A stretch of 47,903 nucleotides of DNA from Thermodesulfobacteriota bacterium (GTDB lineage Bacteria; Desulfobacterota; WTBG01; CAIYCZ01; CAIRTM01), in the NCBI GenBank assembly GCA_028282925.1, contig JANQGV010000101.1:1-47903 (forward strand), in the 5' to 3' direction. A model generated the notes under the pieces. That model did not search any database. It worked only from the letters and a program-made list of their open reading frames with translations, and was not told where the DNA came from. Below, piece by piece: positions 12,480 through 47,447 of the stretch (the stretch's first letter is position 1; every line of letters starts with the position of its first letter). A program made the position numbers and the translations under genes.

Positions 12480-12539
12480 GGTAGCACTAACTATTAGTGT
12501 TCAAAAAGTACTGTCTGTTTTGATCCCTGAAAGGTAATA

Positions 12540-12569
12540 ACCATACACTTCTGTATCACTAATTGTCAA
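12540..12569 (-). promoter_or_regulatory. Candidate sigma-70 promoter of the nuo operon
   Basis: On the minus strand, TTGACA (complement of 12564-12569) is followed after 18 bases by TATGGT (complement of 12540-12545). The -35 box overlaps the last codons and stop of the MFS gene, and nuoA starts about 60 bases downstream of the -10. This is the only good promoter-like pair seen in the gap. The call rests on consensus matching only. Confidence 0.45.
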
Positions 12570-13956
12570 TAGCGGCATACGTTACTGCACCCGACCCACT
12601 GCGTTTCTGTTCCGCCGCAATTTTTTTGCCTGCCACACACAGCCAGAGCGCCAGCGCAAGATTAGAAGCTCCTTTTAAGCCAAACGTCCAGCCCGGACCG
12701 AGCCGGTCGAACAAAAGCCCACCGACCTGAAGATAAAACAGCATTCCCAGGGGGTACATGGTATTCAGCCCGCCCATGATGGTTCCTCGTATATCATGGG
12801 GCGCGGCATCGGTTGCAAGGGTATTGGTACCGGCCAGGATGCCGGCCGCACCAAAACCCACAAGCACAACAGCTAACAGCGTCCCGGCCGCAAAAGGACT
12901 GCTTCCCAGAGCAATGACGAGTATCCCAACGCCTGAACACACCAGCGAAACCAGAAGCGTTGCCACCCTGCCCCACCGGTCAAGCATCCTCCCCACAACC
13001 GGAAAAGAAATGAAGCTGACTGTGCTTAATATAATCATCGGCAGGGCTCCTTTCTGGGTTGCCGCTTCGGATGGCAACCCGGCCTGCTCCCCCGCTCTTA
13101 CCGCCCAGGCAATAATAAAGGTTGCCATAATGGGCATGTCGGCCCTGCCGATAAGTGCGCAAAGGTAGCTTGTCTTTAATGCGGAGCTTCCCATCACAAC
13201 CCGGCAGGCCTTGCGCAGGCTTACCGCTTCGCACTGTATTGTACGGGGCCGCCGGTCTTTTAAAAAAATCATCGTCCCCAGGCCCCCGACAACTGCCAGA
13301 AGCGATGCAACAACAAAAAGGCCTTCAACCCCCCGGCTGTTCCCGATGGGAACTATTGCCGCAAATACGATGATGCTCGCCAGCCCCAGCATAATACCGT
13401 TCAGGGCCATACCCTTTCCGCGGTCCCCCGCGCCGGTATAATCGGCAACCATGGTAATAAACTGTGGGTAGGCCAGAATAATACCGATACCAAGCATCAC
13501 CCGCATTGCATACGCAACCAGCAGCCCCGGCGCAAATCCGGCAAAAGCATCTGCCGCGGAAGGCGTAAAACTCAATGCGGCACACACCTTTGACGAAAAT
13601 CCGACAGGAATCTGCAGAAACGCGGCAATACCGGCCGACTGCCCCATCAGATAATAAAAAACAGCCAGAACGACAAACCCGGAAACCGCGAGTATTTTCC
13701 GACCGACCTTATCGGAGATGACCCCGATGAGACCCACGAAGAACAATGTTGCCAGCTGGCTCATGCTCTGCAGAAACCCGTTGATATAACCGAAATACTC
13801 AGGGGAAACGTTTAAGACGTCTTTTAAAAAAGCAGGCTGCAGGATAGCCGGCATAACCAGAAGAATGCCTATGATCAGGGTGTTCTGATATAAAAAGAAA
13901 AAATGTCTGCGTGTAAGATCGGGGGCAACGGTGATCCCGATAAATGTCTTATTCAT
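12559..13956 (-). CDS. MFS transporter
   Basis: About 465 residues from the ATG at 13956 (MNKTFIGITV), which has AGGA 8 bases upstream. An in-frame ATG at 13992 would add 12 residues but lacks a clear ribosome site. Twelve membrane helices are expected. The loop 2-3 motif GVISDKVGRKILAVSG is the classical MFS motif A (GxxxDxxGRK), with a second copy after helix 8 (GRMLDRWGRVATLLV). The substrate cannot be read from sequence. The first helix pair is separated from the core by a longer loop with alternating hydrophobic segments. It is an isolated gene upstream of nuoA and downstream of a hairpin with a T-run. Confidence 0.88.
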   Translation of the reverse strand: MNKTFIGITVAPDLTRRHFFFLYQNTLIIGILLVMPAILQPAFLKDVLNVSPEYFGYINGFLQSMSQLATLFFVGLIGVISDKVGRKILAVSGFVVLAVFYYLMGQSAGIAAFLQIPVGFSSKVCAALSFTPSAADAFAGFAPGLLVAYAMRVMLGIGIILAYPQFITMVADYTGAGDRGKGMALNGIMLGLASIIVFAAIVPIGNSRGVEGLFVVASLLAVVGGLGTMIFLKDRRPRTIQCEAVSLRKACRVVMGSSALKTSYLCALIGRADMPIMATFIIAWAVRAGEQAGLPSEAATQKGALPMIILSTVSFISFPVVGRMLDRWGRVATLLVSLVCSGVGILVIALGSSPFAAGTLLAVVLVGFGAAGILAGTNTLATDAAPHDIRGTIMGGLNTMYPLGMLFYLQVGGLLFDRLGPGWTFGLKGASNLALALWLCVAGKKIAAEQKRSGSGAVTYAAIDN

Positions 13957-13990
13957 CTGAAATCCTGACCGTTTCTTTGCAGCTGAACGC

Positions 13991-14059
13991 AAAAAAAAAG
14001 TCGTTCAGAAGGCGGGATAGTATGCGGGGGACATGAAGATCTCTTTCCTTCTGAACGAC
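13991..14059 (-). terminator. Long-loop hairpin with T-run between PilZ gene and MFS gene
   Basis: A perfect 13-bp inverted repeat, GTCGTTCAGAAGG at 14000-14012 and its complement at 14047-14059, encloses a 34-base loop. On the minus strand it is followed by nine T (A-run 13991-13999). It can end PilZ transcription. It also lies 35 bp upstream of the MFS start, so it could act as a leader attenuator for that gene. Confidence 0.65.
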
Positions 14060-14116
14060 ATTGCTATGATAAAATACGTATAGATATTCCTGCTTGTTAC
14101 AAAAACCTATCGCACT

Positions 14117-14725
14117 CTATGACACGTTCGTATCTGTATACACATCAATAAACTGCTGCATCTGTCGTGACTGCTCTTCAGACAGGGTGCCGAACTGCAG
14201 TACACATTTTTTTGTTACCACGTCGACCGAGGTAACCGTTTGCTTTCGGACCGGCATAACAGACACAATACTGCAGGGGATATTGACCAGCCGGAACGGC
14301 GTATCCTCCACGAAAATGTGCATCCGCGTATACACCTCATTGTCGCCGTTCAATTCCGCAACCAGCTCCATGGAGAGCCCGGCATCATCCACATCAATAA
14401 TGCTGCCTATAACCACAAGGCCCTGCCCCAACGCGGCGTATGCACCCGGCCGTGCCCTGTACCGTAGACATTTCCTTTTCTCGATATGCAAACCGCTCTC
14501 TCTGTATGTACCCGCCCTGTTCGCTGAACCTGCTGAAAAGGTTCTCTTTTTATTGCCGTACTGTGAGCCCCTGTCGGTTATTAACGCTTTCACTGCCGAT
14601 GTACCTCTCAACTGGAACAGACACATATTATCCGATAGGATTACTTCCATTAGAATAATACCATTAGGCTTATTTGTCAACCCCATTTGCACTTTTTTAA
14701 CAAACACACTGCATGACCCTAACAT
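14117..14725 (-). CDS. PilZ domain protein
   Basis: Up to 202 residues. The middle carries EKRKCLRYRAR (RxxxR-type) followed about 25 residues on by DVDDAGLSM, together the c-di-GMP-binding pattern of PilZ domains (RxxxR and D/NxSxxG). PilZ proteins act as cytoplasmic c-di-GMP receptors. The N-terminal 70 residues match nothing I know. Several starts are possible (ATG at 14725, 14686 or 14650, or a GTG further in, preceded by GAGAGG), so the real protein may be shorter. It stands alone on the minus strand with a hairpin terminator downstream. Confidence 0.7.
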   Translation of the reverse strand: MLGSCSVFVKKVQMGLTNKPNGIILMEVILSDNMCLFQLRGTSAVKALITDRGSQYGNKKRTFSAGSANRAGTYRESGLHIEKRKCLRYRARPGAYAALGQGLVVIGSIIDVDDAGLSMELVAELNGDNEVYTRMHIFVEDTPFRLVNIPCSIVSVMPVRKQTVTSVDVVTKKCVLQFGTLSEEQSRQMQQFIDVYTDTNVS

Positions 14726-14834
14726 ACCGATTTATTTAATGATTTTAGTTAGCATCGGCATGGCGGACGAAAATCCACTCGGCAGAAAACAGAGGGTAGG
14801 ACATGATGAATAGGTCACGAGCTGTAATGGGGAT

Positions 14835-16304
14835 TCAGGACGCTGGAAAAATCTTCTTGTATATGCTTTTGAAAAGCATAATGCCGTTTCCAGCCATCAG
14901 TACCAGAAATGCGCCGTCGAGCGGAAAGCGGAATCGGTTGTTCTCGCCGAATTCAATCAGCGACGACACTCCCAGGGTATACCCGTGGACCAGCAGGCAA
15001 AACAGGCATACAACAGCCGTACCAGGAGGGAAAGGATTTTTTTTGCGGAACAACCCCCGCAGGGTGCCGGCATATACCAAAAGGAGCAGAAGGCTGTAGA
15101 CCCCCGTCCTGATCCACATGCCGGGGTGAGCATGCTTGCTGGTTATGCCGAGAAAGCCGAAGTGCATAAACCGGTAGAGCTTCTCCAGCTTTTGCAATAT
15201 GGCCATATTATCCTGAAACAGGCCGTGCACCGAATCTGAAGCATGCCAGAGCGTCAGGCTGAAGGAGGATGCCGTAAAAAAGGCAAACATACCCGGATCA
15301 TATGCAATCACCGAACGTGCGTCCTGCATGAGCTGTCTGGAAACCTGAACGTATCCGGCATGATTAAAGTTGTTTCTGCCTGTGCTGCGCCGTGTAGTAC
15401 AGTCTGCCGGGTGATGACAGGTAATTGCCTCAATTTCCGGTTCGGAATAATAGTAAGAAAGGGGCTGAAACGCCTGAAGCTCGGCCTTAAGGGCTGTTTC
15501 ACTTACAACGCCCTGCTCGTAGAGCTCTTCAAGCTTGTCCGGGCTGAAACCGTTGGCTTTGGTCCACAGGCTCATACCGGTCCAGGACGTGGTACCGAAA
15601 AATCCGTACACAGCCATATTTTTCACACAGACCGCCACCATTACCAGCAGCACCACTGCCGCGCACACTGTAAATTGCCGGGCCGCCTGTCTTGCACCAT
15701 ACCTTCGAAGCAGATACAGTGCCGTCACAACCCCGATAATCAGAAAAAACACCGGGTGAAACAGGGAGCGCATCAACCCCAGGCTCAAAAGCCCCACCCA
15801 GAAGAGCAGCAAATCTGCCGTTCGTTTCCCGGCACACCAGCGCTGAAGAAAAAAGACCGCCCCAAGCACCAGAAACCCCTCAATAAAGGTGTAGTACAGC
15901 AAATGCTCATACAAAAAAACCGTGGGATTCAGCAAAAAAACAATCGCCACTCCGGCAGCCAGCCACCGGTTCAGCCCCAGTCCTGCCAGCGTACCGAATA
16001 AAAACAGAACCATAAGCAGCCCGGCTGTTTTATACAGCAGCGCAAAGCTGATCTCCGGGTGGGGTGACACCTTCAGGACCACCCCCAGGAAACAGTTGAA
16101 CAGGGGCGGCTGAATATGCAAATACAGCAAGCTGTGCAAAAGGTCCTCTTTCAACAGCACGGGATCAAGATACTGCATGGCAAACGTAATGGGCCGGGCC
16201 AGAAACGCACCGCCCTTCAGCACAAAGACGATGCGGGTTACGGCATACACCACAGCAACCAGCAACGCAGGTGCCGTCTGCTTGTCTTTAAAAAATTGTT
16301 TCAT
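14835..16304 (-). CDS. Membrane glycosyltransferase-like protein (GT-C/PMT type)
   Basis: A 489-residue integral membrane protein with about ten or more helices, starting at an ATG with AGGAAG upstream. The arrangement, a first helix, then a loop with the acidic residues of YLDPVLLKEDLLHSLL and HIQPPLFNCFLGVVLK, then many short helices such as FLLNPTVFLYEHLLYYTFIE, resembles GT-C enzymes (PMT/ArnT-like, family 39) that use lipid-linked sugars. The large hydrophilic segment near residues 235-310 would face the periplasm. The match is by pattern, not by a diagnostic motif, so the acceptor and donor are unknown. A terminator from the upstream gene shows it is transcribed separately. Confidence 0.55.
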   Translation of the reverse strand: MKQFFKDKQTAPALLVAVVYAVTRIVFVLKGGAFLARPITFAMQYLDPVLLKEDLLHSLLYLHIQPPLFNCFLGVVLKVSPHPEISFALLYKTAGLLMVLFLFGTLAGLGLNRWLAAGVAIVFLLNPTVFLYEHLLYYTFIEGFLVLGAVFFLQRWCAGKRTADLLLFWVGLLSLGLMRSLFHPVFFLIIGVVTALYLLRRYGARQAARQFTVCAAVVLLVMVAVCVKNMAVYGFFGTTSWTGMSLWTKANGFSPDKLEELYEQGVVSETALKAELQAFQPLSYYYSEPEIEAITCHHPADCTTRRSTGRNNFNHAGYVQVSRQLMQDARSVIAYDPGMFAFFTASSFSLTLWHASDSVHGLFQDNMAILQKLEKLYRFMHFGFLGITSKHAHPGMWIRTGVYSLLLLLVYAGTLRGLFRKKNPFPPGTAVVCLFCLLVHGYTLGVSSLIEFGENNRFRFPLDGAFLVLMAGNGIMLFKSIYKKIFPAS

Positions 16305-16377
16305 GTATTCACTTCCTGCACATTACTCACATTCCAAGGACTTAATAGATGCTATCATAAAAATCGGTATCGACAAT

Positions 16378-16405
16378 AAAAAAACGGCCCGATGTTCTCG
16401 GGCCG
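16378..16405 (-). terminator. Intrinsic terminator of the DUF3795 gene
   Basis: CGGCCCGA and TCGGGCCG pair around a 5-base loop, and the minus strand continues into six or more T. It lies 59 bp after the DUF3795 stop codon. Confidence 0.8.
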
Positions 16406-16463
16406 CTGTATGTTCCTCATAACTTCCTGAGGTATCAGCCGGACTGCTTCCCCGCCGGATGCA

Positions 16464-16811
16464 TCATAATCCCTGCTTCTTCCTCAGCGCATCAAGACGC
16501 TCTTTGCACTTATGGTCGTGCTGGTGAATCATTGTCACTTTATCACAGGCGTACGCATCACACATCGCACAACTTTCCAGTTCTTTTTTCATGCCGCATT
16601 TCCTTATCTCACACACCCTGCAATACCCGCTGTGAACACCTTCGGCCACACAGCCGTCGCAATTGATGTCTTCGGGCTTCATATCCATTTTAAACTGCTT
16701 AGACCACTGCTCGGCCGTCCTTTTTCGCAACTCATCATTGTCTTCCTGCTTGGCGATATAGGCCGGGCATTCATTACAGAGGAGCCCGCAAAATGATATC
16801 ATCGGTTCCAT
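16464..16811 (-). CDS. DUF3795 cysteine-rich protein
   Basis: A 115-residue Cys-rich protein starting with MISFCGLLCNECPAYIAKQ. The pattern CGLxCxxCPAY, then CDGCVAEG, CRVCEIRKCGM and CAMCDAYACDKV, matches DUF3795, a family of small proteins that probably bind zinc or Fe-S and whose function is unknown. AGGAG lies 6 bases upstream of the ATG. A second ATG four bases upstream is out of frame. The gene is monocistronic with its own terminator. Confidence 0.85.
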   Translation of the reverse strand: MEPMISFCGLLCNECPAYIAKQEDNDELRKRTAEQWSKQFKMDMKPEDINCDGCVAEGVHSGYCRVCEIRKCGMKKELESCAMCDAYACDKVTMIHQHDHKCKERLDALRKKQGL

Positions 16812-17509
16812 TCATGTCTCCTTTCATTGAAGGTAACCTTTCATGGCATACTTGGAAAACTATACCCCAGCTTGGCACCGATTTCAAGGTCCGGGCTAGG
16901 GGAAAAGACACATCGCTTTTGAAGGCGGTAGAGCGATCACCGGCCCACAAGGCAGGTATACTCTCGTATAAACGGCACAAATTTTAATAATCGGTTAATC
17001 TATCAACAGTTTGTGTGCAAAACCTGTTGATAACCAAGTGGAAATCTTCGAAACAGGCCTAAAATAAAGGGTTTTGAGCAATGTGCTTCATTTTTGAGCA
17101 CATGCAATAAAGTATAGCTATTTCAGATAGTTAAGAAAAAAAACGGCTGTTTCATCAGCATAAATGGTCGGTTCCGGGAAAGACCAAAGGGATTTCAACA
17201 GGATAAAAAATGAATACATGAAGGTACACGAAAAGGCATGCATTTACTGCATAAATTTGCATATACGCCATTTTATGAGTATATTTTTGTATATAGTAGC
17301 ATTTTATTGCACATAATACCACCTGCTACCACGGTACACCTTTAATAAAGTACTTCATTTCTTTGGAGGTTTACTTTTACCAGTCTGATGTGGTACGGTC
17401 ATATGCATCCCTTCAAGGAGATACTACGACTGATCCCCCTGCAATGTCTCGGGGATAGACGGATATTCCTGACAAAGCAACGATTACTCATTTACAGAAA
17501 GGACGAATC
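16812..17509. other. Intergenic region upstream of the PurF-like gene
   Basis: About 700 bp without a credible gene. The part at 17200-17350 is AT-rich with repeated GCATTT/GCATAT-like stretches. Around 16999-17034 a 9-bp inverted repeat (TATCAACAG opposite CTGTTGATA) forms a hairpin, and at 17079-17107 ATGTGCT pairs with AGCACAT. A small stem (ATCCCC opposite GGGGAT, 17431-17458) lies in the probable leader before the ribosome site AGGA at about 17500. The gap may hold an unrecognised regulatory element. I see no known riboswitch. Confidence 0.4.
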
Positions 17510-18913
17510 ATGGGTGGTTTTTTTGGCACGGTATCAAAACAGGATTGCGTACCGAACCTTTTTTACGGCACAGATTATCATTCGCACCTGGGCACCAGGC
17601 GGGGCGGCCTGGCAACGCTTGATAATGGAAGTTTTATCAGATACATACACGACATTACCAACACGCAATTCAGAAGCAAATTTGAAAACGACATTGAAAA
17701 AATATCAGGCTGCACCGGAATCGGCGTTATCAGCGACTATGAAGACCAGCCCCTTATTATCGGCTCGCATCTGGGTCGCTACGCCATTGTAACCGTTGGC
17801 GTAATAAAAAATGTGGACGAAATTGCCCAAAAAGCCTTCGGCAAGCGGGGGGGCATTCACTTTTCTGAAATGAGCGGCAACGAGATCAACCCCACCGAAC
17901 TGATCGCGACCCTGATCAATGAAGAAGAGAACTTTGTGAACGGCATCAAAAACGCCCAGGAAAGCATCGAAGGCTCCTGCTCCATCCTCCTCCTGACAGA
18001 AGAAGGCATTTACGCTGCCCGTGACAAGCTCGGCAGAACCCCGGTCATTATCGGCAAAGGCGACAACGGGTATGCTGCAACCATGGAATCATGCGCCCTG
18101 CCCAACCTCGGCTACACCCATGTAAAAGATCTGGGCCCGGGCGAAATAGTTCTTCTGACCCCTGAAGGCGTCGAGCAGAAAAACCCTCCGGGTGAGCAGA
18201 TGCAGATTTGCAGCTTCCTCTGGATATACTACGGGTATCCGGCATCAAGCTATGAGGGCATCAATGTGGAGGCTTCCCGCTACCGGTGCGGTGCGGCCCT
18301 GGCCGATAACGACGATGTAGAACTTGACTGCGTAGCCGGCATCCCCGATTCCGGAACCGCCCATGCCCTGGGGTATGCCGCCCGGGCAAATGTGACCTAT
18401 TGCCGCCCGTTTGTAAAATACACCCCCACCTGGCCCCGCAGCTTTATGCCGCAACAGCAGAACATCCGCGATCTTGTGGCGAAGATGAAGCTGATCCCGA
18501 TCAAGGAACTGACCGAAGGCAAACGGATACTTTTCTGCGACGACTCAATTGTGCGCGGCACCCAGATGAAAGACACCCTGCAGCGCATTTACGATTACGG
18601 CGCCCGGGAAATTCATATGCGCCCGGCCTGCCCGCCGCTGGTTTTCGGGTGTAAGTTTCTCAATTTCTCCCGCTCGCGCTCCGAGCTCGACCTGGCGGCC
18701 CGCAAAGCGATCAGCGAACTGGAAGGCCAGAAGGAAGCTCCCCTGGAAGAATATTCCGACGACAGCACGGAAAAATTCAACGCCATGGTAAACAGGATCG
18801 GCCAGAAAATGGGGGTAACAACACTAAAGTATCAAAAGCTCGATCATATGGTCGACGCCATAGGAATGCCCAGGGACAAAGTGTGCACCTACTGCTGGAA
18901 CGGTAAAGAGTAG
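17510..18913 (+). CDS. Amidophosphoribosyltransferase-like protein, N-terminal Cys missing
   Basis: 467 residues in two domains: an Ntn-hydrolase glutaminase domain (about 1-230) and a phosphoribosyltransferase domain. The PRPP-binding loop RILFCDDSIVRGTQ and IPDSGTAHALGYA match PurF. The four Cys that bind the Fe-S cluster in the B. subtilis-type enzyme have counterparts in QICSFLWIYYG, PLVFGCKFL and CTYCWNGKE. The N-terminus reads MGGFFGTVSKQDC where PurF has (M)CGIFGI, so the catalytic Cys1 is Gly. HLGTRRGG resembles the glutamine-site loop. It is probably an ammonia-dependent or regulatory PurF paralogue. ATG has AGGA upstream, and the gene stands alone before a terminator. Confidence 0.85.
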   Translation: MGGFFGTVSKQDCVPNLFYGTDYHSHLGTRRGGLATLDNGSFIRYIHDITNTQFRSKFENDIEKISGCTGIGVISDYEDQPLIIGSHLGRYAIVTVGVIKNVDEIAQKAFGKRGGIHFSEMSGNEINPTELIATLINEEENFVNGIKNAQESIEGSCSILLLTEEGIYAARDKLGRTPVIIGKGDNGYAATMESCALPNLGYTHVKDLGPGEIVLLTPEGVEQKNPPGEQMQICSFLWIYYGYPASSYEGINVEASRYRCGAALADNDDVELDCVAGIPDSGTAHALGYAARANVTYCRPFVKYTPTWPRSFMPQQQNIRDLVAKMKLIPIKELTEGKRILFCDDSIVRGTQMKDTLQRIYDYGAREIHMRPACPPLVFGCKFLNFSRSRSELDLAARKAISELEGQKEAPLEEYSDDSTEKFNAMVNRIGQKMGVTTLKYQKLDHMVDAIGMPRDKVCTYCWNGKE

Positions 18914-37144: not shown

Positions 37145-38449
37145 ATGGTACGATTTCACAACGCGGTCAAACTAATGGTATGTATTCTGGCGGCACTGCA
37201 GGTAGTCGGTTGCATCAGCATGAGCAGATCCGATCAGATGGCGCTCAGGCAACTGAAAAGTTACGGCATCGGCGAAACAGAACAGGGAACCAAGCATCCT
37301 GCCGTCGCAGCCGGTCTTAATCTGCTTCCCGGCATTGGAAATTTTTATCTTGCCGTGGGTACGGAACACCCGACCCAGTGGACTATCGGATTTATCAATC
37401 TTCTGTTCTGGCCCTGTTCGGTTGTTTGGGGCATTCCCCAAGGCGCAATAGATGCCAACACCATCAACAAAATGGAAACCGTTTATTACTACAAACACGA
37501 CCTCCAGGGCAAACGAGAATTTGCAACCTTGAGAGCCCAGGCCGAGGCTTTGGACGCCGAGCTTGCGGCAGCTACGTATCACCGTCCCGCTGCTGCACAC
37601 AACGGTCTCGGTGCAGGCAGTACTGCAACCGGACCGGTCGTGCGCCCCAACGCAATTCCTCCCTCCTGGCGCGCCCCTAAAAACACGCGATTGTTGTCCG
37701 TCGGCGTAGGCTCTTTCAAGGACCCCTCAATCCCAAAAGTCAGTCACGCCCACGACGATGCCCGGCAGATGGCCGGCTATCTGCAGTCCTGCGGAGTCCC
37801 CCGGGCCAACATAACCCATTTGTCCGACACACAGGCAACCCGCAGCAACATCACCGAAGCCTTAATGAAATTGAAACTGGCCACCACCGAAGAATCGGAA
37901 ACATCCATCTTTTATTTTTCAGGGCACGGGGCACCCATCCTTGAGGACGGCAAAATAGTCGATGCCGCCCTTATTCCCTACGACGCCTTTGAAAACAGCC
38001 TGGACTACACCGGCATTAAAGTCTCAACCCTTAATAATATGCTTGCCGATACCCACGGTAACTTCATTGTTATACTCGACGCCTGTTTCAGCGGCAAGGA
38101 AGGACGCAGCATCATGGCGAAAAACATAAAAAGCATCGCCGTGGTGCCCAGGGACTTCAGTGTAATACCCGAAACAAACGGCAGGTCCTGGTGGGTCACC
38201 TCAACCAGCGGCAATAATTTCGCAAATGTTTTTCCCCAAATGCAGCAGGGGCTTTTCACCTACTATTTTATCAAGTCGCTGGACGGCGCCGACGGTGTCG
38301 ACGCCAACAGCGACGGCCTTGTCAGCCTGAAAGAAGCATTTCAATGGACAAAAACCAATGTTGCCTCGGTTTCAGCCAAAACCCTCGGCAGGCTCCAGAT
38401 ACCGGAAATGAGAGGACCCGGTGATATTATTTTGACGATTCCACGGTAG
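37145..38449 (+). CDS. Caspase-like (peptidase C14) lipoprotein
   Basis: 434 residues from the ATG at 37145, with AAGGAGG 6 bases upstream. The N-terminus ends in LQVVGC, a lipobox. Next is a hydrophobic module (about 45-110) with LLPGIGNFYLAVGTEHPTQW and LLFWPCSVVWGIPQGAIDA. The caspase fold (about 180-430) has the catalytic His in FYFSGHGAPI and the Cys in VILDACFSGKEG, with DDARQMAGYL before them. It should sit in the envelope facing the periplasm, unlike the cytoplasmic caspases of plasmid or defence systems. The substrate is unknown. It converges on the kinase gene, stops 67 bp apart. Confidence 0.9.
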   Translation: MVRFHNAVKLMVCILAALQVVGCISMSRSDQMALRQLKSYGIGETEQGTKHPAVAAGLNLLPGIGNFYLAVGTEHPTQWTIGFINLLFWPCSVVWGIPQGAIDANTINKMETVYYYKHDLQGKREFATLRAQAEALDAELAAATYHRPAAAHNGLGAGSTATGPVVRPNAIPPSWRAPKNTRLLSVGVGSFKDPSIPKVSHAHDDARQMAGYLQSCGVPRANITHLSDTQATRSNITEALMKLKLATTEESETSIFYFSGHGAPILEDGKIVDAALIPYDAFENSLDYTGIKVSTLNNMLADTHGNFIVILDACFSGKEGRSIMAKNIKSIAVVPRDFSVIPETNGRSWWVTSTSGNNFANVFPQMQQGLFTYYFIKSLDGADGVDANSDGLVSLKEAFQWTKTNVASVSAKTLGRLQIPEMRGPGDIILTIPR

Positions 38450-38516
38450 GGTAAAAGAGCTGCTATCGGAGAGGGTGGGCAACGTCCGGAGCGGAACGGG
38501 TATATGCCGAAACACC

Positions 38517-40442
38517 TTAACGAAAGCAATAAAAAGTTCCGCTGCTGCACCCGGCGTACAGATTACTCTCCACAGCAGCAGGCGAGGAAAGAACGGCGCC
38601 GGCCGTTTCGATGCGGCTGATTTCGCTGCCCTGTATTGCATCCAGCAGTACAAGCAGGCCGCTTTCCGTGCCGACTATCACGCACGCGTCGGTTATGCAG
38701 GGTGATGCCGACACCCTGCTGCCGGCATCCCAGGTCCAGAGAATTGATCCCCGGACCGCATCAAGGGCATGCAGCCTGCCGTTGCGGGTCACGGTATAGA
38801 CCATGTCTTTGCGCACGGCCGCCGTTGACGTAATCCAGTCGCTGCAAGCATATGCCCATTTTCGATCACCGGCTTCCGCGCCAAAACAGTAGAGGCGTCC
38901 ATCATAGGAACCGACATATACCAGTCCGCCGGCATACGTCGCAGAAGAGTCTATCATATTGCCCGCAGCGGTTTTCCAGAGCAGATTGCCGCTCTGAACA
39001 TCAAGTGCGTACAGATGACCGTCCTGAGAACCGCAATAGACCGTTCCAGCAACCACCAGGGGCGACGATTCGATAACGGCCCTGCTGGAAAAACACCAGC
39101 GTTTTACACCGCTACGGGCATCCAGACAGTACAAATTACCGTCGTAGCAGCCGAACACAACATCACTCCCCCGAACGGCGGGAGATGAACTGACCGGCCC
39201 CGGGCAGGTAAACGTCCATTGCAGTGCCCCGCTTTCACCATCGATTGCATACAGCACACCGTCATATGACCCGGCAAATACCGTCCCGCCTGCAATGGCC
39301 GGAGAAGCATACACACTGTCGCCGGTGGTAAAACGCCATATACGGTTACCCAGTGATGCATCAAGGCAGTGAATCTCGCCGTTGTTCGTGCCGAATACAA
39401 TCCGCCCTCCCGACCATGCCGGGGATGATAGAACGGCAGACCCCGCACGGTATGCCCATTGCTCATGGAGTTCCTGACCCGGTGCGGCATGCAGGCTGCC
39501 GCTACGGGCCGCATCTCCCCGGAAACACGGCCAGGAAACGCCAATGATGGTTTTATGCGTCTCAGACTCTTTCCGGTCGTCAAAACAGCGCTTCAGATCA
39601 CCAAGAAGCTCCGGGGCCGAAGGGTAGCGTCCGGCAGGGTCTTTCTCAAGCAATCGGCCGATTATCGTCCCAAGCCCCGGATACATCAGTGTGCCGTTTA
39701 TATCCGGCGCTTTCTCATTTTTGATCCTCTTGATAACGTCCCACTGGTTTTTTCCGTCAAAGGCAAGGCTTCCGGTCAGCATCTCGTAAAACACTGCTCC
39801 CAGTGACCACAGGTCGGTCTGCACCGTTACCGCGCCGTCAATTTGTTCAGGGGCCATATAGTTCGGTGTACCTGAAATGCGCGACGGCAACACCCGGCCT
39901 CCTTCCAGCATGCGGGCCAGGCCGAAATCGGCCATTTTCACCCTCCCCCCGCTATTCACCAGCAGATTTTCCGGCTTGAGGTCCTGGTGTACCACACGCT
40001 GCCCATGGGCATAGACCAACGCCTCACACATTTGCACCGCAAGGCCTTTAAAGCGGTCGGGAGAAAGCCTCCCATCGCGGGCAAGCATGTTCCGCAGGCT
40101 TTCGCCCTCAACATACTCCATAACAATAAAAAAAATACTGCCGTCCCGCTCGGCATCAATAATCTGCACAATACCGGGATGATTCAGTCGGGCTTGAAGC
40201 ACTGCCTCACGCACCTGCCGCCCCAGCGCAAAATCCTGCTGAAAAGGAACCTTGATTGCCCGGTGGATATTCAACTCCGGGTGCAGGGCTTTGTACACTT
40301 CGCCGCACGATCCCCGTCCCAGGCTGTGGAGTATTCGATATTTACCGAGAGTGTCTATCATGGCGATCATCATCGGTGATACATGAGGCAGGGCACTCAA
40401 AAGATTGCAAATCCATCGAAAAGAGGGAGCAGGCTGCGGCAT
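38517..40442 (-). CDS. Ser/Thr protein kinase with PQQ-type propeller
   Basis: Up to 641 residues. The start is uncertain (40442 or ATGs near 40370 to 40361, the last giving MIDTLGKYRIL). The kinase domain (about 30-295) shows the Gly loop LGRGSCGEVYKA, Lys in RAIKVPF, VVHQDLKPENLL (HQD in place of HRD), ADFGLARML and YMAPEQIDG. The C-terminal 330 residues hold about seven to eight PQQ-like blades (GGRIVFGTNNGEIHCLDA and similar). No membrane helix is visible, so the propeller may sense a cytoplasmic ligand. It is the last gene of a minus-strand series after the sigma and anti-sigma genes, with 17 bp to the anti-sigma stop. Confidence 0.92.
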   Translation of the reverse strand: MPQPAPSFRWICNLLSALPHVSPMMIAMIDTLGKYRILHSLGRGSCGEVYKALHPELNIHRAIKVPFQQDFALGRQVREAVLQARLNHPGIVQIIDAERDGSIFFIVMEYVEGESLRNMLARDGRLSPDRFKGLAVQMCEALVYAHGQRVVHQDLKPENLLVNSGGRVKMADFGLARMLEGGRVLPSRISGTPNYMAPEQIDGAVTVQTDLWSLGAVFYEMLTGSLAFDGKNQWDVIKRIKNEKAPDINGTLMYPGLGTIIGRLLEKDPAGRYPSAPELLGDLKRCFDDRKESETHKTIIGVSWPCFRGDAARSGSLHAAPGQELHEQWAYRAGSAVLSSPAWSGGRIVFGTNNGEIHCLDASLGNRIWRFTTGDSVYASPAIAGGTVFAGSYDGVLYAIDGESGALQWTFTCPGPVSSSPAVRGSDVVFGCYDGNLYCLDARSGVKRWCFSSRAVIESSPLVVAGTVYCGSQDGHLYALDVQSGNLLWKTAAGNMIDSSATYAGGLVYVGSYDGRLYCFGAEAGDRKWAYACSDWITSTAAVRKDMVYTVTRNGRLHALDAVRGSILWTWDAGSRVSASPCITDACVIVGTESGLLVLLDAIQGSEISRIETAGAVLSSPAAVESNLYAGCSSGTFYCFR

Positions 40443-40459
40443 ACATGTCGGTTCGCCGG

Positions 40460-41098
40460 TTATTCATTCTCTTTCCCGGATTTTGGTTCGTCGTTTCCAT
40501 CAGCGCTTTTTTTATTGCTTTCCTCGCGGTCCTTAGGAGCATATTTTTTTTGCACATCTGCCGCGTTTTTCCGCACAGCGGCCTGCGGCACGGCACCGGG
40601 CGTGAGCAGGTTTTTAAGCACACGGTCAACCGTACCGGAACCTTTTTGCAGTTCATCAGAACCTTTTTGCACAAAAGTTTCAATGGATTTGACCAGCCTG
40701 TCTTTCAGGGTGGTGTCGCGTAACCGCCTGAGACTTGCAACAACGGCTTCGGGAAGCTCGCTTTCTACCGGCTCAATCCTTTCCGCAACCTGCTCAAAGG
40801 TTTTAAGCAGTACAAGCTTCTCGCGGCAGATTGAACATTTTTCAAAGTGGGCCTTCAGTTCGTCACGCTCACCATGCGGAAGTTCGTTGTAAAAATAGCT
40901 ACTGATCTTTTCCGGGCTCAGGCAGTCGGATCGCAAGCCCCTCCAGATGTTTGTTAATGCCTCCAGTGCCGAAAGTATGGCTTCATACTGCTCTGCACAG
41001 CTCCGGCACGTTCGGAGGTGTTCCCGCACAGCTTGTTCTTCGGCATCCGATAATTGCTTGTCATAATACGCGATCAGATCTATTTCCTTACATTTCAT
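40460..41098 (-). CDS. Anti-sigma factor with two ZAS-type zinc motifs
   Basis: 212 residues. Two zinc-binding anti-sigma motifs are visible: REHLRTCRSC (about residue 26) and KAHFEKCSIC (about 85), each in the HxxxCxxC form with an upstream helix (LIAYYDKQLSDAEEQAV and ISSYFYNELPHGERDELK). A single motif is usual. The C-terminal part is a charged helical stretch and a Lys/Glu-rich tail with no membrane helix, so the protein should be cytoplasmic. It probably holds the sigma factor of the upstream gene. A redox or phosphorylation trigger is possible. Confidence 0.82.
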   Translation of the reverse strand: MKCKEIDLIAYYDKQLSDAEEQAVREHLRTCRSCAEQYEAILSALEALTNIWRGLRSDCLSPEKISSYFYNELPHGERDELKAHFEKCSICREKLVLLKTFEQVAERIEPVESELPEAVVASLRRLRDTTLKDRLVKSIETFVQKGSDELQKGSGTVDRVLKNLLTPGAVPQAAVRKNAADVQKKYAPKDREESNKKSADGNDEPKSGKENE

Positions 41099-41219
41099 GG
41101 CTTAAACTTTCTTCGCGATGTGTAATATACCTGCGTGTGTGATCCTCTTCCCGTTTCCCTTGTTTTCTTGGGATATCCCGATCTTTTTTGGCGCGAGACA
41201 CACCCGCAGCCGAAACCTG

Positions 41220-41834
41220 TTACCGGCATTCCACAAGCACCTTAAAGTCGCGGTGTTTACGCATTCCCTCAAGGCAGCGTTTTATCTGTACCGACACAGT
41301 ATTGATTGAAAGGCTCAAGCGGTCCGCCATTTCCCGGTAACTCTCTACACGGCCGATCTGGTATTCGAGGTACAGTTTCATCAGCTCCCGGCAGTAGGGC
41401 GGCAGACATTCGATAATGCCCAACGACACTTCCACGATTTCATCGTGCACGATTTTGTCCTCCGCAACCGAACCCGTCTGGTGCCCTTCACTGTCATGAT
41501 TCATCAGGGCGGCTACACCCCGGTCGTCATCGGGCAACGCAACCGCTTGCCGCCCCTTATAAGAATCGAGAATCCTGTTGATGGTCACCCTTTTAACAAA
41601 TGCGCGAAACTGTTTTGGTTCCTTCACCATGCCGAGTCCCTTTTCAATCAGGGACACGATTACCTGTTGCGTTACATCTTCAGCGGTATCGATCAGGTTC
41701 CAGCGTTTCCAGCGCGTTATACCCAGCACAAAACCGTATACATACGACCAGGCTGCTTCATCGCCTTTTTTGCAGAAAGCATACAGGTTTTCATCAGGCA
41801 TGTCTTTGAAGTCGGCGTTTACTGAGTTCGCCAT
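41220..41834 (-). CDS. ECF-type RNA polymerase sigma factor
   Basis: 204 residues. Region 2 (about 15-90) has DEAAWSYVYGFVLGITRW, then TAEDVTQQVIVSLIEKGL and FVKRVTINRILDSYKG. Region 4 (about 135-200) has LPPYCRELMKLYLEYQ, then YREMADRLSLSINTVSVQI, a clear helix-turn-helix. It has no region 1.1 or 3. The start has only a weak AAGGG upstream. The gene lies 121 bp before the anti-sigma gene and two genes before the Ser/Thr kinase. ECF factors linked to kinases are known in other bacteria (for example EcfP/PknT in Vibrio parahaemolyticus). Confidence 0.92.
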   Translation of the reverse strand: MANSVNADFKDMPDENLYAFCKKGDEAAWSYVYGFVLGITRWKRWNLIDTAEDVTQQVIVSLIEKGLGMVKEPKQFRAFVKRVTINRILDSYKGRQAVALPDDDRGVAALMNHDSEGHQTGSVAEDKIVHDEIVEVSLGIIECLPPYCRELMKLYLEYQIGRVESYREMADRLSLSINTVSVQIKRCLEGMRKHRDFKVLVECR

Positions 41835-42065
41835 TATCGTTTGTACCCTTGGACCAAGATTATTAAAACGAACACTTTTAAGTAAGACCGGTCGGGCAGA
41901 GTATACACGAATGTAGTCGGCCTGCCTCTGTGGCAGACCAGTGCAGGAGAAGGCCGATATGCTTCATACTCTCCTTTATTGTCCGGAAACCGGTGTGGAT
42001 ACAATGTGATGTATATGCCCCTTATCGCTTCCCCTGCCCGGGGGGGGAAGCGTGATATCGTTTTT

Positions 42066-43301
42066 TTACCGGCAGCAGTGGTGCGGCAGCCACTCTTTCC
42101 AGGCCTGCTCAAGCTCTTCACAGGAGAGGTGCACACGCCCCAGCGCTCCGGGCACCTCTTCTCCGCTTCCGAATGCACCCAGCACGGCCCGAATACCGCT
42201 CCATGAATACCGCTGCAATAGAAAGGTTACTATACTATATGCCTCAACATAGGCAAAGTCAATCAACTCAGCATACTCCAGCGCAGAAAAATCATGCTGC
42301 AAAATCTCCAGGGGCAAAAACGCATCATTATCAAGAGCTCTCTGTAAAAGCTCCTCGGTGCCGGCCGGTGCATTCTGGGTTTCAACCTGGGCTATTCCTT
42401 CCTCCAGCCAGAGCGGGCACTTTCCGCCGGTCATGTGACGCACGGCGTAATGCACATATTCATGGGTAAGCATCAAGTACAGAAACTGCGGCTCTCTCAA
42501 TGTATCGTCGTCGGTATTGATACGGATCTTTTCATCACACATCCCGGCGGCCCAGTCCGGTGCAGCGCAACCATTCAGGCCGGTTACGCCCTGTAGCTCT
42601 TCCTGTGAGGTATACACCTCCACCTCCACCCGCTCAGGATACACCTCAAGGTGCCTGCCGACCAGATCGTAAGCCCGTTTAAGCGTTTTAAATATCTCCT
42701 TTATCAGATGGGCATCACGGGATATATGAAACCGGATCTCAAAAGGGGCTGCGTTGAGGCTGACAAAGTCATCCGGGCCGACAATGGACAGCGTATCTTT
42801 TTTCCCCGGCACAACAAGGCTTTCAAGCTTGCGATACATGTTTTTCTTCCGCGCAATACGGTCCTGCAGTTGGAGCGCCTGAGAGTTGCCCTGTTCCATG
42901 AGCAGTGCCTTTTGCACGGCGGATTCGGCTGAATCCCAGCGCCCGTGCATGAGGTGGCGGTCGGCTTCAGTGAGCACCTTCGCCACGTTTTCATCATCGG
43001 CACCTTCCTTTGCACAAAACGACTCAAACCGAATGGTATTTCGGCATATGGATATTACATCACCCCCCTGCACCGGGCTCCTGTTTATCTTTATATGGTT
43101 GAGATACGTACCGTTGGTACTGTTGCGGTCTTCAATAAAAAAACCTCCTCCGTCACAATATAATGCAGCATGGTATGCCGACACATCTTCATCATTGAAG
43201 GTAATGACGTTGTCCCAGGCCCGCCCGATTGTGCAACCGGTTTCCGGGACATCAACTGTTTTCTCAACAAAACCCGAGGTTGTAATATGCAAAACCGGCA
43301 T
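42066..43301 (-). CDS. FHA domain fused to a gluzincin metallopeptidase
   Basis: 411 residues, start with AAAGGTG upstream. The FHA domain (about 1-100) has GCTIGRAWDNVITFND, VSAYHAALYC and DRNSTNGTYLNHIKI, with the Arg, Ser, His and Asn that bind phosphothreonine. A linker with a helical pair follows (about 110-165). The C-terminal domain (about 190-410) contains LTHEYVHYAVRHMTGGKC and, 19 residues after the second His, WLEEGIAQVE, the HExxH plus E pattern of peptidase MA-like gluzincins. It has no signal peptide, so it is probably cytoplasmic and could dock on a protein phosphorylated by the neighbouring kinase. Confidence 0.88.
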   Translation of the reverse strand: MPVLHITTSGFVEKTVDVPETGCTIGRAWDNVITFNDEDVSAYHAALYCDGGGFFIEDRNSTNGTYLNHIKINRSPVQGGDVISICRNTIRFESFCAKEGADDENVAKVLTEADRHLMHGRWDSAESAVQKALLMEQGNSQALQLQDRIARKKNMYRKLESLVVPGKKDTLSIVGPDDFVSLNAAPFEIRFHISRDAHLIKEIFKTLKRAYDLVGRHLEVYPERVEVEVYTSQEELQGVTGLNGCAAPDWAAGMCDEKIRINTDDDTLREPQFLYLMLTHEYVHYAVRHMTGGKCPLWLEEGIAQVETQNAPAGTEELLQRALDNDAFLPLEILQHDFSALEYAELIDFAYVEAYSIVTFLLQRYSWSGIRAVLGAFGSGEEVPGALGRVHLSCEELEQAWKEWLPHHCCR

Positions 43302-43360
43302 GTTACACCTTTAACCCGTTTGTCATGACACGCCCCCTGTCGGCTCGGACCCAAACAAGC

Positions 43361-44869
43361 TCATTTGATGAGCACACTGCACCGGGCTTCACTCCACCCT
43401 TTTTGTATCCGGTCGAGCCCCGTCTTCATATCATCCAGATCTTTTGCCCGGGAAACGTCGCGGAAAACCGTTTGCGTAAAGTCATACTCTTGCAGAGAAA
43501 TGTTTTCCAGGGTTGCTATGGCTTTAATATGCTCGGTGCCCCGTGGACCCAGTACTTTGTACTCAAAACCGTAGTCATCCTCAGGCACACGGTAGGTGAC
43601 GCCTCCGTAAATAAAATTATCGGGATGAAAGCGGTTGGGGAATAAAATAGTTATCTTACCGTTCACGGCAATGTCGATGAGGGTCAGGTAACAGTCGCGC
43701 TCGCTTTTGAAGTTGAAAGCAATCGTATCACCAACGGCGTACTCCTTTTTGTCGGCCCACAGTTGAACGTTGAACGGCGGGGTTGCCTGCTGCATGGCCG
43801 TCATTCGCCTCAGCATCAGGTTTTTATCATCCATGCAGCCTTGGCCGTCGGCACTTTTGCGCAGCTCAACGGTAATCGCCGTGTCCTGTGCCAGGTCTAT
43901 TTCCATGTCCTCAGGGCAATAGCCATCGGAGCCGCTCACCAGTATGGTATGCGGACCGTTGGAAAGCTGCACTGAAAGGATACCCTCGTGAGTTTGCTGC
44001 TTCCTGATACCGTCGATCATGACAACGGCATCACGGGGGGTCAGTTGAAGGGTCAGGTTTGCCGATTGCGCTTTCATATTGACGATGTGGCTTTGATCTC
44101 CGGCAATGTATATATTTTCCGTTACCGTACCATACCCCAGGGCCGACACCACGATGGTACAGCTTCCATGGGGAACAGTGCGGAACACAGCCGTCCCGTG
44201 GCGTATTCTCTGGTTTTGCGTGCCGACTGAAACCCGCGCTATACGGCGAATAGTTTCAAATCCGCTCTCTTCATCTTCTTCAACAAGGGTTATGGTAAGG
44301 GTCGACGTCAAAACATCTTCAAGCATCTCCCTGGTATCGTCGCTGTTGCCCAACTGGGTTTCGGCAACCGCCAGAATTTCACCGGTTTTGCTGTCGATCA
44401 GGCGGGCATTGATATCGACCACGGCACCCATAACCTTTATCGTACCGGCAACGATTGCCCCGGCCCCGGCCTTGCGCCCGATATCGGCAAGCGTACCTTC
44501 ATCAAAATGGCCGCTGCGTTCCAGCTTCTGCTGCATAAGCACTTGCTTCAAAAGGCTTCGCTCTACGATTTTTTCAAACCTTCCGGTTTTAAAAAGCCGG
44601 GTCACCAGTTTCTCCGAAATACCTGCTCCCAGCCGGGTCAGTTTATCGTCCGGCCCGACAAAATCGACCACACCGATAACCGGTTTCTTATCCATCGGCA
44701 GATTCTGCGCAAGCTGCAGCACCAGGCCGTCGAGCGAAGCAAGCAGTTTAGCCGAACCGCCCGTTTGCCCACCCGGGAAGGCTGCACAGGATACCAACAG
44801 GGTTGCGATACTGAACAACGCTCCAAAGCGTATATGCCGCTTGATCTTCAAAGCAATTCCTTCATGCAT
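43361..44869 (-). CDS. CsgG-like/PEGA/DUF4384 lipoprotein
   Basis: About 502 residues. The N-terminus ends in TLLVSCAAF, a lipobox. A TTG at 44851 with GAAGGA upstream may be the true start, which would remove six residues. The first part (about 45-200) resembles CsgG/FlgO-like domains (VIGVVDFVGPDDKLTRLGAG and FEKIVERSLLKQVLMQQKLE, GAIVAGTIKVMG). Two PEGA-like repeats follow (about 205-335), and DUF4384 closes the protein (LWADKKEYAVGDTIAFNFKS, CYLTLIDIAVNGKITILFPN). DUF4384 often accompanies caspase-like proteins. It should be anchored in the envelope, and it is the first gene of the minus-strand series. Confidence 0.85.
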   Translation of the reverse strand: MHEGIALKIKRHIRFGALFSIATLLVSCAAFPGGQTGGSAKLLASLDGLVLQLAQNLPMDKKPVIGVVDFVGPDDKLTRLGAGISEKLVTRLFKTGRFEKIVERSLLKQVLMQQKLERSGHFDEGTLADIGRKAGAGAIVAGTIKVMGAVVDINARLIDSKTGEILAVAETQLGNSDDTREMLEDVLTSTLTITLVEEDEESGFETIRRIARVSVGTQNQRIRHGTAVFRTVPHGSCTIVVSALGYGTVTENIYIAGDQSHIVNMKAQSANLTLQLTPRDAVVMIDGIRKQQTHEGILSVQLSNGPHTILVSGSDGYCPEDMEIDLAQDTAITVELRKSADGQGCMDDKNLMLRRMTAMQQATPPFNVQLWADKKEYAVGDTIAFNFKSERDCYLTLIDIAVNGKITILFPNRFHPDNFIYGGVTYRVPEDDYGFEYKVLGPRGTEHIKAIATLENISLQEYDFTQTVFRDVSRAKDLDDMKTGLDRIQKGWSEARCSVLIK

Positions 44870-45376
44870 TCTCTTGCTGCTGTTGATAAATACAGGCAGG
44901 TTGTACAGGTGGTCGTGAACTACATGCCCCTTTTTTATACGTCTCGCTGCCCCGGTACCGCACCAGGTGCGGCAAAAAAAAGTATCCGGTATTCTACCAT
45001 CCGGCCTTCGGTCTACATCTGTTTCACTGCGTGTCTTTACACTATACCATCTTGAATAAAAAGGTCAATAGTTCCATACCGTTCTTCTATTGTTCCGCCG
45101 ATTCGTTTCCCGGATAAACTCCGACAAGCATTCAACGTGCAGCCGCCGGTTTCATATCAAACGCAACGCCACCCTCCTTCAACACCTGTCCGGCAAAAAC
45201 CAATCAGAAGTTTTACTCATGACAAGCTGTTTTTTGCTTAATACCGTGAGGTTGGGTAAGCGCGAAGAGGCAGATGGATGATATCTCTTTGTCAAAACGC
45301 TTTTCATTGACAATAGACACTAAGACAGGTACATACATCTATACAACAAAAAATCAACCCTACACAAAGAGCACCA
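44870..45376. other. Divergent gap between the two lipid- and membrane-protein genes
   Basis: About 500 bp separates the CsgG-like gene from the TPR gene. It should hold promoters for both, but no sequence matches consensus well enough to name. No gene or strong hairpin is seen. Confidence 0.4.
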
Positions 45377-46231
45377 ATGCCATTGACTCCCCGTCTCATT
45401 GAACGCATCAAACTCCATCAGCGTGAAGTCGGCCCGGCAAACACGTCCGGCAATACGGCATTGCTCAACATACAGGTGTTTCCGGAACACGATAATGACC
45501 TTGCAACAATTAAAACCACCCTTAAAAGCCGAGGACTTACCCGTATTGTCGTCAACAGGAAAGCCGATGCCGTTACCGCCCAGGGCTCGCCTGAAGCGGT
45601 TGTGGAATTACGTGGCCTGCCTCATCTTGTAGACTATGCCGACACCGGAACCGCAACGCGCCCCGATAATCGAACTTCACGATTCCTTCCGGCAACAATA
45701 ATCGGCGTCATTATTTTGGCTTTACTATTTACGGCTGATTTCCTGCCGAAAATCCCACGTTTGCTTGTCGAACACATAAACAGTACAGGCACACAGGTCA
45801 ATACAGGACTTTCCTCACAAAATCAAAACCGTGCATACGCCGAAAAAAAAGGAACAACCCCCGACTCTTCTCCTTTTGATATTTCAGCCGCCGAACGGCT
45901 GCTGCAACAAAAAAAATATCGCGATGCACTGCCGTTGCTCATTGAAGCCCGCAAAAGGGATAGAAACAACCCTGTCCTTGCTTTCAAGGCCGGTCTGGCC
46001 CATTACCATACCGGCAACCTGACCGAAAGCATACAACTGTTCTCAACCGCCGTCGCCGGTGCGCCGGATAACCTCTCTTTTCATCTCATGCTGGCCCGGG
46101 CATTCATTGAAGCAGGCCAACCGGACCGTGCCCTTCAGGTCTATGAAAACATGCTTGCCCTCGATCCTGAAAACAGTGCAGCCCAAGCCGCCGTGATCCG
46201 GCTCCAGGCCGGTGACCGTGGTTTCGACTGA
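45377..46231 (+). CDS. TPR protein with one membrane helix
   Basis: 284 residues. The N-terminal 90 residues are cytoplasmic, a single helix follows (about 95-116, LPATIIGVIILALLFTADFL), then a linker and TPR-like units in the rest (SAAERLLQQKKYRDALPLL, LAFKAGLAHYHTGNLTESI, LARAFIEAGQPDRALQVYE). The orientation probably places the TPRs in the periplasm, where they could bind the envelope proteins made by neighbouring genes. No known full-length family. ATG has only a weak upstream site. The gene stands between the divergent gap and the trypsin-like gene. Confidence 0.7.
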   Translation: MPLTPRLIERIKLHQREVGPANTSGNTALLNIQVFPEHDNDLATIKTTLKSRGLTRIVVNRKADAVTAQGSPEAVVELRGLPHLVDYADTGTATRPDNRTSRFLPATIIGVIILALLFTADFLPKIPRLLVEHINSTGTQVNTGLSSQNQNRAYAEKKGTTPDSSPFDISAAERLLQQKKYRDALPLLIEARKRDRNNPVLAFKAGLAHYHTGNLTESIQLFSTAVAGAPDNLSFHLMLARAFIEAGQPDRALQVYENMLALDPENSAAQAAVIRLQAGDRGFD

Positions 46232-46571
46232 TTTTTACTTTCAATATGCATGCCGCTATGCTAGACTGGTTACATTGACACAGAAAGAAACTGTTTAAAA
46301 AATCCAGGGGCACGCTGCTACTACCCAGAAACCATCCAAACTGTAATCCAATACCATCAGCCGGTATTATCTGCGGTTTCTAGTCTCTGCGGCAAAAACC
46401 TCACACAACTTGTACGGGGCAACACAAGTATATTTTCAACCGTAAAAAACACCCGCGCAACCATTGGATTTTACGCGTCCTCCTGTATTGTAAGAATGGC
46501 ATCCATCTATTCGTCAAAGGAGTAATAAACAATATATAGCCACACAATGTATAAACCGGGGAGATTTTGCA
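46232..46571 (+). other. Gap between TPR and trypsin-like genes
   Basis: About 340 bp. A nested inverted repeat (AGAAACC...GGTTTCT, about 46329-46380, enclosing AATACC-ATCAGCC-GGTATT) may form a stem, without a T-run. No gene is seen. The trypsin-like ATG has GGGGAGA upstream. Confidence 0.4.
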
Positions 46572-47447
46572 ATGACTCACAAGAAAATGTTTGCGGCAAT
46601 TTCGTTCTTTTTAATTATGGCATTGTTATTTGTTTTTCAGGGACCAGTCTGCGCGGCTGACCAGCCATCCGGCGGCTCATACGAACATGTCGATCTCGGC
46701 GACGATGCTCTTAAAAATAAATCAAAAAAACCGTCCACCAAAAAGAAGCCGTCGGCAAAACCTTCTAAAACCCCCTCAACAAATTCATCTTCAGGTCAAA
46801 CCCTTTCAGCCGCCCAGGTATATGAGCGCAACAACAAGGCTGTTGTGACAATAACCGCAGAGATTCCTGGAGTGGGGGGTGGGCATGGTTCTGGTTTTTT
46901 TGTTTCAGCCAATGGTTTTATCATGACCAACCAGCATGTGCTTGACATGAGCAAATTCAGCGAAGTGGAACACTTGACTGTTTATCAGGTAATTACCTCT
47001 GATGGACGTAAGCACACTCCTCAAATCATTAAAACCGACTCCGAACTTGACATAGCCTTGATAAAAATAGATGGCAAGGGTTTTCCCTATGTCAACCTTG
47101 GCAACATGTCCGAAGCAAAAGTCGGAGAACCTGTGTATATTGTCGGCACACCAGTCAGGCTTGAGTTCCGCAGTTCAATAACCGAAGGCATCATAAGCGG
47201 TTTTAACCGTAGCGATGGACACATTCAAACATCTGCTGTGACACACGGGGGTAACAGCGGCGGTCCGGCATTCAACAATCGTGGCGAGGTTATTGGTATT
47301 TTAGTTGCTGGTGCTGCCAGGTTAAATCCTAAAACGTTTTTTATTGATGGAGAAAAAACAATTATACCCGTCAAAGAAGACGTTGCCGGCATTAGTTATC
47401 TTATTCCGATTAACTTTGCGAAAGGCATTATGAATCTCGCTTACTAA
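46572..47447 (+). CDS. Secreted trypsin-like serine protease
   Basis: 291 residues. The first 30 residues form a signal peptide (LIMALLFVFQGPVCAA), followed by a Lys/Pro/Ser-rich linker (about 48-75). The chymotrypsin-like fold shows His in FIMTNQHVLDM, Asp in DSELDIALIKID and Ser in HGGNSGGPAFNN. There is no PDZ domain, so it is simpler than DegP. The GHGSGFFVSANGF strand is standard. It probably acts in the periplasm or outside. It ends the plus-strand part of the cluster. Confidence 0.9.
   Translation: MTHKKMFAAISFFLIMALLFVFQGPVCAADQPSGGSYEHVDLGDDALKNKSKKPSTKKKPSAKPSKTPSTNSSSGQTLSAAQVYERNNKAVVTITAEIPGVGGGHGSGFFVSANGFIMTNQHVLDMSKFSEVEHLTVYQVITSDGRKHTPQIIKTDSELDIALIKIDGKGFPYVNLGNMSEAKVGEPVYIVGTPVRLEFRSSITEGIISGFNRSDGHIQTSAVTHGGNSGGPAFNNRGEVIGILVAGAARLNPKTFFIDGEKTIIPVKEDVAGISYLIPINFAKGIMNLAY

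Follow-up and report, generated by a model that had tools for sequence, protein, structure and literature searches.

The window, by which we mean the whole 47,903 bp stretch analysed, is the entire contig C125 of a 5.6 Mb draft genome (G000) and carries an array of signalling and protease genes laid out over 10 kb with several strand switches. All genes that an initial annotation had named in this array (caspase, kinase, anti-sigma, ECF sigma factor, FHA-metallopeptidase, CsgG lipoprotein, TPR protein and trypsin) were found close to where it had placed them, as judged by Pfam and by intact catalytic motifs. On the minus strand, the gene for a lipoprotein with a CsgG/FlgO domain and a C-terminal DUF4384 domain (43361..44869; Pfam DUF4384, 2.8e-23; lipobox LVSC) is followed by those for an FHA plus Peptidase_MA_2 gluzincin metallopeptidase (42066..43301; Pfam, 1.7e-15 and 1e-13), a divergent ECF sigma factor with sigma-70 regions 2 and 4 (41220..41834), a soluble anti-sigma protein with tandem ZAS motifs (2 x HxxxCxxC; 40460..41098; Pfam zf-HC2, 2.3e-14, in two stretches) and a Ser/Thr kinase with a C-terminal PQQ-type beta-propeller (38517..40442; Pfam Pkinase, 6.9e-51). 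The intergenic gaps, from CsgG to kinase, are 59, 231, 121 and 17 bp; those of 231 bp (FHA-gluzincin to ECF) and 121 bp (ECF to anti-sigma) leave room for separate promoters, and we propose the CsgG gene as the first gene of the minus-strand unit (44869-38517). Its product had also been credited with a PEGA domain, which is a sub-threshold match only, whereas the CsgG/FlgO and DUF4384 domains stand. On the plus strand, the gene for an accessory caspase lipoprotein (37145..38449; Peptidase_C14, Pfam 2.1e-12; lipobox VVGC) converges on the kinase gene, and the genes for a single-TM TPR protein (45377..46231; Pfam) and for an exported HtrA-type protease without PDZ domain (46572..47447; Trypsin_2, Pfam 3.7e-33) diverge from the CsgG gene; we treat the latter two as neighbours of the unit. 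A small lipoprotein is encoded at the contig end (47552-47902), and the array may continue past this right end on an unlinked contig.

The two ZAS motifs of the soluble protein, HLRTCRSC and HFEKCSIC, lie at residues 27 and 84, and its gene comes next after that of the ECF; with an HxxxCxxC protein thus encoded beside an ECF, its sequence predicts it to be the anti-sigma factor of the adjoining ECF. The ECF itself comprises regions 2 and 4 only and matches the ECF model TIGR02937 at 55.5 bits (NCBIfam cut-off, 42.9), the Pfam models of sigma-70 regions 2 and 4 scoring below their cut-offs. The catalytic site of the FHA-gluzincin (HEYVH...EEG) is intact, and the HExxH motif with its downstream E-G is conserved in five proteins, which together with the fold places the window enzyme in clan MA; in an AlphaFold model of moderate confidence (pLDDT 57 overall, poor over the FHA half), the best Foldseek matches of the gluzincin fold are collagenase H and LTA4H. 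The kinase keeps HQDLKPEN and DFG motifs, and an alternative start is possible at an ATG at 40373. It is a non-RD kinase, as is that of the G144 genome described below (HHDIKPEN, L050 12052-13806), and HRD occurs in the G230 kinases and in one G343 kinase. The motifs of the caspase (SGHG/DACFSG) and of the trypsin (H/D/GNSGG) are likewise intact. By hydropathy, the anti-sigma, the ECF and the FHA-gluzincin have no membrane segment or signal peptide, and the kinase has no convincing TM or signal, its best 19-residue window falling in the propeller; the caspase and CsgG proteins carry lipoboxes and the trypsin a signal peptide-like N-terminus. Sigma, anti-sigma, FHA-gluzincin and kinase are accordingly predicted to be cytosolic, and caspase, trypsin and CsgG to be exported.

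To look for this gene set elsewhere, we ran FHA-gluzincin, ECF and anti-sigma profiles against 395 genomes sampled from the phylum. In the contig scan for the FHA-gluzincin, a single-sequence query gave no match and an alignment query did; among the 395 genomes, matches spanning both FHA and gluzincin came only from the window, from G144 (JAHDOV010000007.1, Deltaproteobacteria; locus L050) and from G048 (WFSG01000047.1), whose contig stops 339 bp past the FHA-gluzincin gene. The phosphothreonine-binding residues of the FHA domain (G26-R27/S41/H44/N63) are invariant in three FHA-gluzincin fusions. A further candidate fusion, L090, was rejected on finding two separate ORFs, and the gluzincin matches in ~50 other genomes were stand-alone or TPR-linked, with no matching ECF in the fetched loci. 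In G144, the FHA-gluzincin, the tandem-ZAS anti-sigma (28% identical to that of the window, 1e-17), the ECF and the kinase (40% identical over the kinase domain) lie within 5.5 kb in an order rearranged relative to the window, the other three genes coming immediately downstream of the FHA-gluzincin, with a DUF4384 protein encoded 3.5 kb and a caspase 7 kb upstream of the module. Several FGE-sulfatase-like (SUMF1-type) genes also surround the G144 module (L050 1792-7593 and 15192-17489), one of them confirmed by Pfam.

The ECF profile search led to two more loci, in G230 (L191) and G343 (L192), both of one genus. Their operons run from a CsgG-TM protein through a zinc-ribbon protein (SPFH/band-7 in G230) and one or more kinases to the gluzincin, the ECF and the ZAS anti-sigma, so that the CsgG, gluzincin, ECF, anti-sigma order of the window is kept in both. 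Both genomes also have a kinase gene immediately before that of the gluzincin; only G343 retains one behind the anti-sigma as well, the two G230 kinases both being encoded upstream of the gluzincin. The gluzincin lacks an FHA domain in G230 and G343; the G343 operon has separate FHA proteins, of which the fetched G230 stretch showed none. The window CsgG protein is homologous to those of G343 (2.5e-7) and G230 (1.9e-5) in pairwise comparison, and the window and G230 proteins match an LpoB model at 0.0014 and 2.4e-4, respectively, both below the cut-off. As in the window and G144, the anti-sigmas of both genomes have no hydrophobic segment; in G332, G116 and G100, by contrast, the anti-sigma is anchored in the membrane. 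Membrane segments were found in the G144 kinase and in one kinase each of G230 and G343, kinases that could sense the envelope directly. One kinase at the G230 locus (L191 5094-8243) carries, behind a single TM, a DctP (TRAP) solute-binding domain at its C-terminus and is possibly a ligand-sensing Ser/Thr kinase.

Downstream of the ZAS anti-sigma, G343 encodes an FhaA-like protein, an FHA protein, a PP2C phosphatase, a kinase and a SEDS protein, and G230 a SEDS protein followed by a PBP transpeptidase. These neighbourhoods resemble the actinobacterial fhaA-fhaB-pstP-rodA-pbpA-pknA-pknB locus (PMC6554272), to which G343 corresponds largely, matching its order with FhaA_N+FHA, further FHA proteins, PP2C, kinase and SEDS, and G230 partly, sharing kinases, SEDS and PBP; the ECF/anti-sigma/gluzincin module of the relatives is additional to it. 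The window, by comparison, has no SEDS, PBP, PP2C or FhaA_N gene, and the two SEDS genes of its genome lie on other contigs. Within the G343 locus (L192, G343:C91:1-18500), positions 2006-18173 encode FhaA_N/FHA proteins, a second FHA protein, PP2C, a kinase and a divergent SEDS protein, in the order of fhaA-fhaB-pstP-rodA.

The ECFs of the window, G144, G230 and G343 group in a single clade (support 100/98; long branches in two of the four rows, identities to the window ECF 23-35%), apart from the genome's own sigma factors and from six other ECF relatives, which are without the protease. A kinase gene lies nearby in 4/4 loci of this clade vs. 1/21 other ECF loci (p = 4e-4), and the chance expectation of a gluzincin within 5 kb of an ECF match, judged by density, is ~5e-4 per match. 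Since G230 and G343 belong to one genus, the loci represent three independent lineages (the window, G144 and G230/G343). The recurrence of the ECF/anti-sigma/gluzincin/kinase set in genomes this distant shows clustering beyond chance, and we consider it very probable that CsgG, FHA-gluzincin, ECF, anti-sigma and kinase constitute a conserved functional unit, in agreement with the initial annotation, which had grouped these proteins in one envelope-linked neighbourhood. The distribution is patchy: ECF and gluzincin adjoin in only 4/395 sampled genomes, the module occurs in 2/46 genomes of G230's order, and no gluzincin or FHA neighbour was seen in the ECF-profile loci fetched from 284 Planctomycetota genomes (G440's phylum) and 266 Myxococcota genomes (G438's phylum).

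A common promoter motif for the ECF, which had been proposed as a check on the array, was not found; a search of upstream regions for two-box words, with shuffles as control, turned up no convincing word common to three independent regions, and the apparent two-box excess was mostly the csgG/tpr intergenic region counted on both strands. This is a weak test, and the targets of the ECF may mostly lie elsewhere; sigma-70 and terminator scans were at chance level. The missing motif, the strand changes within 10 kb and the presence in so few genomes are what one would expect if a sigma/anti-sigma pair had merely come to lie beside unrelated signalling genes, but an arrangement conserved in distant families and a well-supported ECF clade defined by its neighbourhood make such chance neighbours very improbable.

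What recurs is this core rather than the full set, in which caspase, trypsin and TPR protein had been included. Nothing in the G144, G230 or G343 stretches corresponds to the trypsin, the TPR protein or the small lipoprotein, and a caspase lies near the module in 1/3 related loci (the G144 counterpart, 28%, 7e-16 pairwise). The window caspase is the only C14 match listed in its genome, in a search whose counts are lower bounds, as the G144 caspase known at C20:42-43.3 kb was not among its matches. Caspase or CHAT peptidases do occur at separate but related ECF/tandem-ZAS loci, in C127 of the same genome and in G332 and G116, which resemble the window in having an ECF followed by a tandem-ZAS anti-sigma, a clan-CD peptidase and CsgG or DUF4384 domains, and differ from it in the absence of gluzincin, FHA and kinase from the 18-20 kb fetched, in ECFs that fall outside the gluzincin-linked clade and, for G332 and G116, in the membrane anchor of the anti-sigma. 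Because these peptidases occur in such separate loci, clan-CD peptidases appear to associate repeatedly with the wider ECF/ZAS group and not specifically with the gluzincin-linked clade. The C127 locus (L040, G000:C127:8000-26000) encodes, at 3535-9328, a second ECF and tandem-ZAS anti-sigma and then a CHAT-CsgG fusion and a TPR/CsgG lipoprotein; in L193 (5656-9918) and L194 (9698-17670), an ECF and a membrane tandem-ZAS anti-sigma are encoded next to caspase-ankyrin or caspase-DUF4384 and TPR-CHAT proteins.

The initial annotation had arranged caspase, FHA-gluzincin and trypsin in series, as a single cascade ending in envelope protein processing. In its favour, related ECF/tandem-ZAS pairs have caspase and CHAT peptidases as companions in C127 and in f60 genomes, and a caspase-like protease controls an anti-sigma in type III-E CRISPR (PMC10028731). 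The caspase and trypsin nevertheless carry export signals, and the soluble cytosolic anti-sigma, the ECF, the FHA-gluzincin and the kinase carry none; the three proteases are thus split over two compartments, which argues against a single cascade. With related loci that lack trypsin and TPR and mostly lack the caspase, and with no shared promoter motif found, we regard such a series as improbable, and the caspase and trypsin as at most accessories of the switch. The CRISPR parallel is itself partial: in type III-E Craspase (Csx29-Csx30-CASP-sigma), a caspase-family peptidase and an ECF share one locus, as in the window, and the protease is proposed to free the ECF from its inhibitor, but the window caspase is an exported lipoprotein and its cytosolic protease a gluzincin, the CAS_III-E_sigma model gives 19.1 bits (cut-off, 100), and no array protein has a CHAT domain.

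We reasoned that the minus-strand genes (44869-38517) could encode a switch of kinase, anti-sigma and ECF that lies in the cytosol, is linked to an envelope lipoprotein and acts via kinase-triggered, FHA-guided inactivation of the anti-sigma, a reading that we rank first, at slightly less than an even chance. At rest, the soluble tandem-ZAS protein would hold the ECF; upon envelope or cell-wall stress, the Ser/Thr kinase would phosphorylate the anti-sigma (or itself), the FHA domain would bind the phosphothreonine and so bring the metallopeptidase to the anti-sigma, and the latter would be cleaved or displaced by this recruitment. The freed ECF, its core-RNAP-binding acidic motif intact, would then transcribe an envelope regulon, with the caspase as an optional periplasmic output and the trypsin and TPR protein as bystanders. 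An envelope output is suggested by the CsgG/LpoB-like partner and by the cell-wall operon context in G230 and G343, and is more tentative for the window itself. Among the parts of this scheme, the anti-sigma is probably the control point; FHA-guided proteolysis of the anti-sigma is a more tentative proposal, and a dedicated phospho-reader protease, leading from kinase through FHA-protease to sigma release and wired in the relatives into a deltaproteobacterial FhaA/PstP/RodA/PbpA cell-wall operon, is a speculative one that we think rather unlikely in full.

The closest precedents are the mycobacterial PknB-RseA/SigE and RshA/SigH systems (PMC10027907, PMC8999054), in which, as in the proposed switch, an ECF is set free when a Ser/Thr kinase targets a soluble ZAS anti-sigma. 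There, RseA is phosphorylated by PknB and afterwards broken down by ClpC1P2 (PMC10027907), no FHA-linked protein being dedicated to the system, whereas the window has an FHA-gluzincin adjoining the ECF and, unlike the mycobacterial system, two ZAS motifs in its anti-sigma. The single RseA phosphoresidue reported is a tyrosine (PMC10027907), so that this precedent offers no example of phosphothreonine reading by an FHA domain. Other STPK-linked ECFs, those of ECF43, are without the DAED motif (PMC8999054); the Vibrio pair EcfP/PknT shares with the window an ECF encoded next to a Ser/Thr kinase, but there DAED is lost and direct phosphorylation activates the ECF, whereas the window places a ZAS anti-sigma gene between ECF and kinase and retains the acidic region-2.2 motif (TAED; DPED in G230 and EVED in G343, diverging in G144 in the alignment). 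With the motif retained and an anti-sigma present, direct phosphorylation of the ECF is disfavoured. Regulated intramembrane proteolysis of the RseA/DegS/RseP type involves a membrane-spanning anti-sigma, and that of the window has no hydrophobic segment.

The kinase might also act directly on the ECF/anti-sigma pair without any proteolysis, through phosphorylation or through zinc loss and oxidation at the ZAS motifs, either of which would release the ECF, with the FHA-gluzincin as a downstream cytosolic effector or regulon member that has another substrate. Soluble ZAS anti-sigmas such as RshA and RseA are redox-responsive and phosphorylation by PknB releases the sigma factor (PMC8999054), the window anti-sigma carries tandem HxxxCxxC motifs, and the gluzincins of G230 and G343 have no FHA domain. 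We hold this to be a serious possibility, somewhat short of even odds; against it, the gluzincin adjoins the ECF/anti-sigma pair in 4/4 loci and is the clade's most constant companion, beyond what would be expected of an arbitrary regulon member.

As far as we have searched, the locus with its proposed FHA-guided switch is a previously undescribed variant of ECF/anti-sigma signalling under kinase control, one that has a dedicated FHA-gluzincin; full-text searches of open-access papers returned no description of it, in keeping with the earlier impression that the full gene set had not been reported. Most known cases in which a kinase controls sigma release come either from Actinobacteria, whose phosphorylated anti-sigma is cleared by a Clp protease of general function, or from ECF43, where no anti-sigma is needed. 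If the proposed switch holds true, the conserved cassette would couple Ser/Thr phosphorylation to transcription in a new way, through a phospho-reader metallopeptidase of its own, and its placement in an FhaA/PP2C/kinase/SEDS/PBP operon in Deltaproteobacteria would carry the actinobacterial cell-wall signalling locus over to Gram-negative bacteria.
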